In this document: one piece after another, positions 3,747 to 34,633 of the stretch | Layout: each line of letters opens with the position of its first letter | How positions within the stretch are numbered: the stretch's first letter is position 1 | NCBI GenBank assembly: GCA_028873795.1 | Contig: JAPPNP010000042.1 | Location: 25,292 to 62,829 of the forward strand | Reading direction: 5' to 3' | DNA length: 37,538 nt | Source: Chloroflexota bacterium | GTDB taxonomy: Bacteria > Chloroflexota > UBA11872 | Notes under the pieces: generated by a model | What the model saw: only the letters and a program-made list of their open reading frames with translations | What the model was told of the DNA's origin: nothing | The model's database searches: none | Made by a program: the position numbers and the translations under genes

Positions 3747-3810
3747 ATTCGCCCAAGGGAATACTCCCTTGACCAATTGGAATAATCGAATTATTCTCTG
3801 CTGACAAGAG
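3747..3810 (+). promoter_or_regulatory. AT-rich element upstream of the first Fic gene
   Basis: This AT-rich stretch holds GGGA-N4-TCCC and the dyad AATAATCGAATTATT. About 53 of its bases align without gaps to the minus strand at 29059-29111, upstream of a LiaF-like gene. By eye 36 of 53 positions match, with the core TAAT(C/T)GAATTATTCTC nearly invariant. It ends about 20 bases before the Fic start, so it probably includes that gene's promoter or operator. Confidence 0.45.
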
Positions 3811-3831: not shown

Positions 3832-4992
3832 ATGGAATTCTCGCTGACGGCGGATATCAGCGACATCGACACGGATTCGCTCTTCCGGCGACTCTACGAG
3901 GTCCGCACGCTGATCCCGGGCGGCTACGAGCCCTATTTCCGCGAGCGCGCGCGCTATCTGAGCACGCTCGCCTCGGCGAAGGTGGAGGGCAACCCCCTCG
4001 GCTATGAAGAGGCCCGGGTCCTGTTTGCGGGCGAGGGCGATCCGGTCCGACCCGAGGAGCGCGAGCTGACGAACCTGCACGACGCCTATGGGCTGATGGA
4101 GCAACTGGCGGCGGACGCGACCGTGCGGATCGACCAGGGACTGCTGCGCGCCATGAACTCGCTGATCCTCGAGGGCTTGCCGGACGAGATGTCACGGCGC
4201 CGCGGGCAGTACCGCGCGGGACCTAGCCTGATCGAGGACGCGGAGTCGCGCGAGATTCGCTACCGGCCGCCGCCGCCGGCTTGGGTCCCGGACCTGATGG
4301 ACCGGCTGGTCGCCCACATCCAGCAATGGACGGCCGAAGAAAGCTTTCCCCCGCCGATCATCGCGGCGCTGGCGCACGCTGGCCTGGTCGCGATCCACCC
4401 GTTCGAGGAGGGGACCGGTCGCACGGCCCGTCTCCTGGCCGACATGATTCTGCACCAGGCGGGATGGTCGGAGGAGGGCATGCTGGTGCTGAACGTGGTG
4501 ATCTGGCGCAACCGCGACAGCTACTACCAGGCACTCCGCGACACGCACGGTCTGGACTTCCGGTCGGATGTCGATGGGACGCCGTTCGCCGCGTTCCACA
4601 CCGACGCCTTGCGCACGGCCGCCGCGATGCTCGAACACTTCGTCGTGTCGTTCAAGGGGCGTCAGGACGCCTGGCGGGAGGAGTTCGGTACACGCTTGAA
4701 CGAGCGGCAGACGCTGGGCCTGACCTACATCATCGACACGGGCTCCGTGTCCAGCTCCATGTACGCGCGGCTGATCGGCGCGTCCCCATCCACCGCCTAC
4801 GCGGACCTGACGCACCTGGTGTCCTGTGGCGCCGCCGTGCGATCGGGCAAGGGTCGGAATACGCGCTACGCGGCTAATCCAGACCTCTTGGCCCAGCTGA
4901 TCGCCGCGGTCGAGCGGTCGGGTTGGGCGGAGACGTATGTGAGAAAAGGCCGCCGGCGCGACTCAGACGGCGGCGACGGCTCGGAGCGGTAG
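3832..4992 (+). CDS. Fic-domain protein with winged-helix C-terminus
   Basis: This 386-residue Fic protein would transfer a nucleotide monophosphate, usually AMP, to a target protein. The Fic motif is HPFEEGTGRTAR at residues 189-200. It differs from the usual HPFxDGNGRxxR by Glu for Asp and Thr for Asn, so activity could be altered. An N-terminal inhibitory motif, S48-A-K-V-E52-G53, fits a class II Fic protein that blocks its own ATP site until relieved. Residues about 290-355 look like a winged-helix domain, suggesting DNA binding and possibly autoregulation. The start has a weak upstream AGGCGGAGCG sequence. It closes the plus-strand block inside the viral module. Confidence 0.88.
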   Translation: MEFSLTADISDIDTDSLFRRLYEVRTLIPGGYEPYFRERARYLSTLASAKVEGNPLGYEEARVLFAGEGDPVRPEERELTNLHDAYGLMEQLAADATVRIDQGLLRAMNSLILEGLPDEMSRRRGQYRAGPSLIEDAESREIRYRPPPPAWVPDLMDRLVAHIQQWTAEESFPPPIIAALAHAGLVAIHPFEEGTGRTARLLADMILHQAGWSEEGMLVLNVVIWRNRDSYYQALRDTHGLDFRSDVDGTPFAAFHTDALRTAAAMLEHFVVSFKGRQDAWREEFGTRLNERQTLGLTYIIDTGSVSSSMYARLIGASPSTAYADLTHLVSCGAAVRSGKGRNTRYAANPDLLAQLIAAVERSGWAETYVRKGRRRDSDGGDGSER

Positions 4993-32558: not shown

Positions 32559-33743
32559 TTACTCAACTGTCTCGACGCCCTCCAGAGCTTTCAGGTAAGG
32601 AGCGTAGCGGAACACGCGGTTACGCCGGTTGCCGGTGATTTCTTCGAGCACTCCAGCCTCGGCGAGTCGGGCCACTAGGCGGTTGGCGGCGGTATAGCTG
32701 GTTGACGTGACGTGCTGTGCGTGGGCGACAGAAACGAACGGCTGCCGGTACAGGTAGTCGAGCACGCGGTGGCCATTGGCAGCGGCGAGTCCGAGGCGCT
32801 CGGTGACCAGGGCCCGATGCTCCTCCCGTAGTGTGAGAATGCGACGCACAGTGTCCGCAGCTTGGGCACTGACCTCGGCCGCGCCGCGCAAGAAAAAGGC
32901 CAGCCAGCCTTCCCAATCGCCGCTGTCACGCACGGCCTGTAGCCGGTCGTAGTACTCGCCGCGGTGCTGCCGGAAGAAGTGCGAGAGGTAGAGCACCGGC
33001 TGCCCGAGAATGCCGCGCTGGCACAGCAAAAACGTGATGAGCAGCCGGCCCACGCGACCGTTTCCGTCCAGAAACGGATGGATCGTCTCGAATTGGGCAT
33101 GGACAAGCCCAACTTGAACCAGAACCGGCAGCTTGGTTGGGCCGTGGATAAAGTCCTCCAGCGCACCCAAGGCGTTGGGAACCTCGCGGTGCGGCGGCGG
33201 CACAAAGGTCGCGTCATTGAGCGTGCTTCCGGCGGGGCCGATCCAGTTCTGGCTGGTGCGCAGCTTGCCGGTCTGCATCTGTGACCCACGGACGTCTTCG
33301 AGCAGCCGGGCATGAATCTCCCGGATCAAGCGGACTGAAATCGGCAGCGTTTGCAGGCGCTCCAGTCCGTAGTTCATGGCCGTCACGTAATTGATCACCT
33401 CACCGACGTCTCGCGGCTGGTTCGGCGACCGCAGGCTCGCCTCGGCGGCCAGGACGTCCTGCAGGGAGCTTTGCGTGCCCTCGATTTGGCTGGAGAGCAC
33501 GGCCTCTTTGCGCACGTACATGAAGACGAACAGGTTCGGGTCGGGCAGCGTCTGGATCGAGCCGTCGAGGCGGCCCAGTGCCTGATCGGCCTGGGAGAGC
33601 AAGGCCTGAAGCTCCCCATCCAAACGCACCGGCGGCTCCGGTGGCAGCGGGGATGGCATGAACGCCCGGTATCCCTGCGGCTGGGTGACGTATTGCCCGG
33701 CGCGCTGACCGGTCGCTGCGTTGGTTGCTTCAACTGCGGACAT
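32559..33743 (-). CDS. Fic-domain protein, canonical, with winged helix
   Basis: This 394-residue Fic protein has the full motif HPFLDGNGRVGR (222-233) and an N-terminal inhibitory motif SSQIEG (84-89). The N-terminal YRAFMPSPLPPEPP block is typical of this large Fic group. The C-terminal 90 residues form a winged-helix region (SVAHAQHVTSTSYTAANRLV). It would transfer AMP to a target and be self-inhibited. The start at 33743 lacks a strong ribosome-binding site. The upstream region holds five dyads with about 40-bp period, the nearest only 25 bases from the start, so self-regulation by the winged helix is attractive but unproven. The lipoprotein gene converges on its 3' end. Confidence 0.9.
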   Translation of the reverse strand: MSAVEATNAATGQRAGQYVTQPQGYRAFMPSPLPPEPPVRLDGELQALLSQADQALGRLDGSIQTLPDPNLFVFMYVRKEAVLSSQIEGTQSSLQDVLAAEASLRSPNQPRDVGEVINYVTAMNYGLERLQTLPISVRLIREIHARLLEDVRGSQMQTGKLRTSQNWIGPAGSTLNDATFVPPPHREVPNALGALEDFIHGPTKLPVLVQVGLVHAQFETIHPFLDGNGRVGRLLITFLLCQRGILGQPVLYLSHFFRQHRGEYYDRLQAVRDSGDWEGWLAFFLRGAAEVSAQAADTVRRILTLREEHRALVTERLGLAAANGHRVLDYLYRQPFVSVAHAQHVTSTSYTAANRLVARLAEAGVLEEITGNRRNRVFRYAPYLKALEGVETVE

Positions 33744-33767
33744 GTCGGCCCGGTCCGCTGTAACGCT

Positions 33768-33954
33768 TCATATGTTCAGAACCAGCAATATGCAGGCGAA
33801 ACGGTTCCATATTATCGGCAGCCGCACATATGGAGGTCTACAGCCGCCATATTGTCGCCAGCCGCACATATGGAACGCTGGCGACAGCCATATTATCGTT
33901 TGGCGCACATATGGAAGCCTGCAGCCGCCATATTGTCGCCAGCCGACACTATGG
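33768..33954. repeat. Five phased 27-bp dyads upstream of the second Fic gene
   Basis: Units start at 33768 (degenerate), 33807, 33847, 33888 and 33928. The four clear units start CCATATT(A/G)TCG and end ATATGG or CTATGG, giving CCATAT...ATATGG arms. Spacers are 13-14 bases and differ. The period of 39-41 bases is about four DNA turns, so units would face one side of the helix. Confidence 0.8.
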
Positions 33955-34004
33955 CCAACGTCCGCCGGCGCTTGGCGGATACCGAGCGCGCGAAGCTGCG
34001 GCCC

Positions 34005-34514
34005 TTAGTCGCGAACCCCGCCGCGCGATCGCTCCGGCGGCGGCAGGGGCAGCACGAAGAACACGGCGCCATCCGTGGCCTTGGTGGGATGGACGCCAAA
34101 GCCGAGCGCGAGCTTGAGCGCGTGATTGGCCAGGCGATCGCCCGCGCTCCGCGAGCGCACCTGGTGACAGCCAAGGGTCGTGGCTTGCTCGATCAACTCG
34201 TTCTGCAGCGCAGCCCCCACGCCGCGGCGCCGGCAATCTTCGGCGACGCCAAACGCCAGCACGTACGCCTCGCGCATCGGCTCTCCGCGCAGGGTCAGGC
34301 TCGGTCGGTCGGCGTCGGGTCCGATTTGCTGGACGACGAAACGGAGAAACCCAACCAAGCGGCTATCCGTCACCGCGACCAACGTGTGCTTCTCCAGGTG
34401 CCACGCGGCCTCATAGGCGAAGTGCTCCGCTTGGCCCACGGCATCGGCCAGATCGCCGGCCGCCGGCTCGTATTCGCCGCCCGGCAAGCAGCGCTGGATC
34501 TCAATGTCGGTCAT
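34005..34514 (-). CDS. GNAT family N-acetyltransferase
   Basis: This 169-residue acetyltransferase has the GNAT core: a strand VLAFGVAEDCRRRGVGAALQ with the acetyl-CoA pyrophosphate loop R-R-x-G-x-G, then a helix NELIEQATTLG and a further strand. ATG at 34514 begins MTDIEIQRCL; an upstream in-frame start would give an unlikely leader. The substrate is unknown. It diverges from the GPP34 gene with about 120 bases between starts. The strand points away from that gene and toward the dyad array, which lies beyond its stop. Confidence 0.8.
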   Translation of the reverse strand: MTDIEIQRCLPGGEYEPAAGDLADAVGQAEHFAYEAAWHLEKHTLVAVTDSRLVGFLRFVVQQIGPDADRPSLTLRGEPMREAYVLAFGVAEDCRRRGVGAALQNELIEQATTLGCHQVRSRSAGDRLANHALKLALGFGVHPTKATDGAVFFVLPLPPPERSRGGVRD

Positions 34515-34633
34515 GTCGCGCGCCTGGTCGCCACAGTCCTTCCCGCCAACCCCATCACGGACACCGTCCGGGTGGAACGATATGCTAGCGGCAGGCTTGC
34601 GAGCTGTATAAAGCACGCAAAGGAGCGTGGCCG

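Follow-up and report, generated by a model that had tools for sequence, protein, structure and literature searches.

An array of 27-bp dyads directly upstream of a class II Fic gene in a Chloroflexota genome very probably constitutes a multisite operator through which a SoFic-like AMPylase represses its own gene by means of its C-terminal winged helix-turn-helix (wHTH) domain, as suggested by sequence comparison, structural modeling, and analogy with characterized systems. The sharing of this type of array across phyla, combined with co-variation between the sites and the recognition helix of the encoded protein, indicates that the Fic enzyme most likely binds the sites and represses its own gene. 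The window analyzed here is a stretch of 37,538 nucleotides (contig JAPPNP010000042.1, positions 25,292 to 62,829), and its relevant features, in window coordinates, are the following:

32559..33743, minus strand: class II Fic protein P0001, 394 aa, SoFic-like, with the SSQIEG inhibitory motif and the Fic motif HPFLDGNGRVGR
32580..32792, minus strand: predicted C-terminal winged-helix domain, residues ~318-388 (AlphaFold; weak hits to Pfam MarR_2 and HTH_13)
32658..32696, minus strand: putative recognition helix, residues 350-362, YTAANRLVARLAE, with Arg355 (AlphaFold model; half-site co-variation)
33767..33793, minus strand: dyad unit 1, nearest the Fic start and degenerate, GCATATTGCTGGTTCTGAACATATGAA in gene-strand reading; in the 40-bp register, weak matrix score
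33807..33833, minus strand: dyad unit 2, CCATATGTGCGGCTGCCGATAATATGG, matrix score 20.6
33811..33840, minus strand: promoter-like TAGACC-N18-GATAAT with its -10 element inside unit 2; consensus match only
33847..33873, minus strand: dyad unit 3, CCATATGTGCGGCTGGCGACAATATGG, matrix score 16.1
33888..33914, minus strand: dyad unit 4, CCATATGTGCGCCAAACGATAATATGG, matrix score 14.9
33928..33954, minus strand: dyad unit 5, distal, CCATAGTGTCGGCTGGCGACAATATGG, matrix score 20.0
34005..34616, minus strand: GNAT acetyltransferase, the upstream neighbor, outside the system; its place beside the array is conserved no farther than the genus

Organization of the array and of the Fic protein

The five units are centered at 33780, 33820, 33860, 33901, and 33941, with start-to-start distances of 40, 40, 41, and 40 bp and intervening spacers of 13, 13, 14, and 13 bp. 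The pattern CCATAT-N15-ATATGG is exact in three units and carries one mismatch in another; in 100 shuffled versions of the whole window, matches averaged 0.21 and never reached four. The gene-proximal unit (TTCATATG...CAATATGC) keeps the register and the CATATG-type ends but is otherwise degenerate, scoring -7.5 with a matrix derived from other phyla, compared with 15-21 for the remaining four. Thus, the five dyads with CCATAT...ATATGG ends described in the initial annotation are present, as four strong units and a degenerate gene-proximal one. Some details of that description need adjustment: the array ends 23 bp, rather than 25 bases, before the Fic ATG at 33743; the period of about four helical turns is approximate, with 40.2/10.5 amounting to 3.8 turns at 10.5 bp per turn; and the spacers are not wholly unlike each other, given that an 81-bp direct repeat (84% identity across 67 bp) is made of units and spacers together. 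One promoter-like site was found versus 0.2 expected, a consensus match that is not evidence of function, and no terminator was found.

P0001 contains the Fic_N and Fic domains and displays the two class II signatures, an N-terminal (S/T)xxxE(G/N) and HxFx(D/E)GNGRxxR, represented by SSQIEG and the Fic motif listed above, which are invariant or nearly so across 43 relatives. In the AlphaFold model (mean pLDDT 88.4, pTM 0.87), the C-terminus forms a winged helix, and the fold matches SoFic and CbFic2, both of which bear a wHTH. The best structural matches are SoFic 3zcn and 3eqx (TM 0.77/0.82; 3zcn over 369 columns), with the Fic_N, Fic, and wHTH components of the SoFic fold all present; a Mycobacterium marinum Fic protein is also among the nearest folds, and CbFic2 comes next, at lower similarity. 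The PADLOC SoFic model, which gives no cut-off, matches P0001 along almost the entire length (400.9 bits). With the NCBIfam SoFic equivalog, however, the score is 159.7 bits and misses the cut-off of 550, and we therefore refer to the protein as SoFic-like.

No repeat array is present in the leader of the window's other Fic gene (3832-4992), which encodes a degenerate Fic motif, HPFEEGTGRTAR; a short dyad, GGAATAATCGAATTATTC, is located upstream, at ~3780-3798.

Conservation in close orthologs

Within the taxonomic family, we compared the leaders of 10 orthologs with 74-100% identity, the Fic gene of the window included, as the initial annotation had proposed. The dyad array stands in register before all 10. 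Its presence is constant between close relatives, against the free variation that would have refuted the initial reading, although the number of units ranges from 5 to at least 9. Within the genus, identity is 74-91% for the units and only 46-49% for the spacers that separate the later ones, with the spacer length constant at 13-14 bp. In one ortholog, L010 (G002:C47; 420 bp upstream of Fic), at least nine units follow each other at exactly 40 bp.

In the orthologs of P0001, the gene-proximal unit is clearer and includes the start codon: the ATG of the last CATATG is the Fic start in 7/9 close orthologs (leaders L006-L013). In the window, a one-base difference throws this ATG out of frame, and the in-frame ATG is found farther downstream. 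The position of the start codon within the last CATATG half-site suggests that the Fic mRNA of orthologs of the L006-L013 type could be leaderless or nearly so. In L006, the start ATG lies 30 bp before the start of the match.

A 40-bp lattice shared by distant phyla

The same type of array precedes Fic homologs with 57-73% identity in about a dozen phyla, including Pseudomonadota, Planctomycetota, Chloroflexota, Verrucomicrobiota, Acidobacteriota, and Chlorobiota. A symmetric matrix trained on the leaders of these far relatives, with all sequences of the window clade left out, gave the pan-phylum consensus CYATATTAAAGGC-W-GCCTTTAATATRG and detected at least two sites in 26/28 leaders, compared with 0/272 control windows; in a two-fold hold-out, the respective numbers were 24/28 and 0/248. 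Scanned with the matrix from other genomes, the window exceeds 8 bits solely at four of the five units. An ATG of the Fic frame falls within the last dyad in 21 of the 35 far relatives.

Neighboring sites are spaced by 40 bp (37 times) or 41 bp (7 times) in 44 of 48 pairs, with distances of 30, 39, 81, and 143 bp seen once each. A scan that uses no motif and presupposes only two mutually similar dyads likewise ranked 40/41 bp first among the spacings in 58 of 112 leaders, the rest being flat, and the best-scoring control windows showed no spacing peak. Because spacings of 30/31 and 50/52 bp are practically absent, the period looks like that of a rigid 40-bp protein lattice rather than mere helical phase, which replaces the helical phasing of the initial annotation with a spacing fixed at 40/41 bp in the far relatives. 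Among more distant Fic genes (an independent set with ~45-50% identity), the strict 40-bp array is not dominant, and in several of them dyads run into the ATG. Three distant SoFic-like loci (L149, L156, and L157) have TATTAAA-type dyads that reach into the start codon but do not form the strict 27-bp/40-bp array.

Co-variation of half-sites and recognition helix

The suggestion that the Fic protein's own winged helix binds the array gains support from the modeled C-terminal wHTH, from the co-variation of half-sites with the recognition helix, and from the different half-site of a paralogous group. Where the protein has Arg at position 355 (AAN-R), half-site base 10 of its leader is C in 11/11 cases, versus 3/39 where Arg is lacking, and the mean fraction of C at this base is 0.93 versus 0.11 (11 and 39 leaders, respectively). 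When Gly replaces the first Ala of AAN (AGAN), base 11 is C in 8/8 leaders versus 3/42 of the others, although near relatives inflate such counts. In particular, the Fisher p value of the Arg/C pairing (1e-8) overstates the case because, within the window clade, the rows with Arg belong to one clade. In the Fic-core tree, neither Woeseia L072 nor the distant L138, both of them Arg rows, is sister to the window clade, for approximately three separate origins of Arg; the branch of L138 is long and its placement in this quick tree uncertain. C at base 10 without Arg occurs in L010 (Asp) and in the plasmid-borne L144 (Asn), which are exceptions to the rule. A partial Mantel test of operator versus recognition helix given the Fic core yielded r = 0.27 (p = 0.0005), and the reverse test r = 0.16 (p = 0.016). 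The paralogous Fic group of the same family (L015-L026) has a different recognition helix and half-sites of the TTATTCAG type, with a mean of 3.5 per leader and none in 98 control windows; despite this other half-site, the paralog leaders keep a 41-bp repeat (24 + 17).

Alternative explanations

Several other readings of the array were considered. The sites were identified by sequence alone and, hence, could in principle serve an unlinked regulator of Fic genes, either a host factor or a global one. Such a regulator appears quite improbable given that the array accompanies Fic across many phyla amid unrelated neighbors, that half-site bases and Fic recognition helix vary together, and that the array occurs only once in this genome, unlike the sites of global regulators. 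A linked trans-acting gene was rejected, the largest neighbor family being common to 11 of 50 array loci. In L056, the one locus checked with Pfam, the genes on either side of Fic and its array are hsdM and hsdS of a type I restriction system, a setting in keeping with a defense role. The neighbor group of L056 2950-4164 is also present in L035, L041, L052, L054, L055, L061, L067, L070, L072, and L074, these ten loci having been grouped by sequence similarity of the neighbors. A tandem repeat of selfish or structural nature (iteron, MITE, or REP-like) that is located here by chance is extremely unlikely: the 81-bp higher-order repeat and the expansion to at least nine units in one relative do indicate tandem duplication, but the 3.18-Mb genome contains no other copies, the place and register before Fic are always the same, and the units are conserved while the spacers drift. 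The worry that the array might recur at many unrelated loci was not borne out by a genome-wide search for the dyad pattern, in which the units of this one locus were the only matches with at most one mismatch. A CCATAT-N15-ATATGG site on contig 33 was dismissed as a further copy, being solitary and devoid of the inner bases, and a test for over-represented 7-mers was too weak to be of use. An iteron-, centromere-, or REP-like array was discounted on account of its single genomic copy and its annotated adjacent genes, GNAT and Fic, and an RNA structure or riboswitch because no Rfam family matches in the window.

Other alternatives retain the Fic protein as the binder and differ in the outcome. 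Activation of the gene by its own product, for which the distal units upstream of the promoter-like site would be suitably placed, is hard to reconcile with the occluding position of the last dyad, over the start codon in 21/35 far relatives, and with the nearest studied case, CccR, being a repressor (PMC9755527); we regard it as very unlikely. There is a small but appreciable chance that the array chiefly controls the enzyme and not just its transcription, such that DNA-bound dimers would form an inactive or deAMPylating store, freed when infection disturbs the complex. In line with such a store, CbFic2 has been proposed to turn from an AMPylating monomer into a deAMPylating dimer upon DNA binding (PMC10628234), the toxicity of EcSofic requires dimerization and the C-terminal domain (PMC12249575), and up to at least nine units exceed what is needed to occlude one promoter; however, the CbFic2 work used random DNA, and the regulatory and toxic activities of CccR are reported to be independent (PMC9755527).

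Proposed mechanism of autorepression

Returning to autorepression as the preferred reading, we infer that the Fic protein binds the array, that binding is cooperative, and that it results in repression rather than activation. Dimers of the SoFic-like AMPylase would bind each 27-bp dyad via their C-terminal winged helices and occupy the 40-bp lattice side by side. The filled lattice would lie over the promoter, and over the start codon too in most relatives, and the Fic gene would be repressed by its own product, keeping a potentially toxic enzyme at a low, self-limited level. It is because sites overlie the start codon, where occupation should block expression, that cooperative autorepression by the Fic winged helix is proposed.

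Comparison with known systems

Autorepression by a Fic-HTH protein is already known: CccR of Yersinia pseudotuberculosis binds inverted 10-mers in its own promoter as a dimer through its HTH and represses its own gene (PMC9755527). Like P0001, CccR is a class II Fic AMPylase with a C-terminal HTH and palindromic sites in its own leader. Compared by its published site, however, CccR recognizes one inverted 10-mer pair, AGATAATCAT-N26-ATGATAATCT, whereas the leaders described here contain 27-bp dyads, from 3 up to at least 9 in number, repeated every 40/41 bp and with another half-site, and the start codon is often within the last dyad; furthermore, CccR is a secreted effector. Relative to CccR autorepression, the conserved multidyad lattice that we describe from the leaders of SoFic-like genes of many phyla is new. 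The open-access literature searched yielded no conserved multidyad operator lattice across SoFic-like genes of many phyla with a fixed 40-bp period, helix-operator co-variation, and the start codon in the last dyad.

P0001 shares the fold of the SoFic single-gene anti-phage family (SO_4266; E. coli Sofic) and matches its PADLOC model, although it stays below the NCBIfam SoFic cut-off and its identity to the solved SoFic of Shewanella oneidensis is only ~23%. The paper on E. coli Sofic, which makes no mention of an operator array, reports that the gene is so toxic if leaky that cloning took three lac operators, and calls Sofic activation elusive (PMC12249575). CbFic2 of Coxiella burnetii is also a Fic-wHTH protein in which DNA binding is linked to activity; for CbFic2, no specific site or operator is known and a host chromatin target has been proposed (PMC10628234). 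AbiEi is likewise a wHTH protein that represses its own toxin operon via several inverted repeats (PMC7319586). In AbiE, the binder is the antitoxin, whereas the present array, which is longer, is predicted to be bound by the toxic enzyme itself.

Implications for SoFic-type immunity

How SoFic-type AMPylases remain harmless in healthy cells, and how phage triggers them, has been described as an open question (PMC12249575). A more speculative possibility, which we consider doubtful, is that the lattice is operator, safety store, and infection sensor in one: cooperative filling would hold the toxic AMPylase in an inactive or deAMPylating state, and disturbance by infection would both free the enzyme and derepress the gene. 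If this is true, the operator array itself would be the infection sensor of SoFic-type immunity. Autorepression through the cross-phylum multidyad operator would, for its part, supply a concrete control element, together with a predicted binding site and, as a target for mutation, a recognition helix, and the leader array offers a way of recognizing such Fic genes. The array also presents a case in which DNA geometry, the 40-bp lattice, is preserved although the protein comes to read a different sequence.
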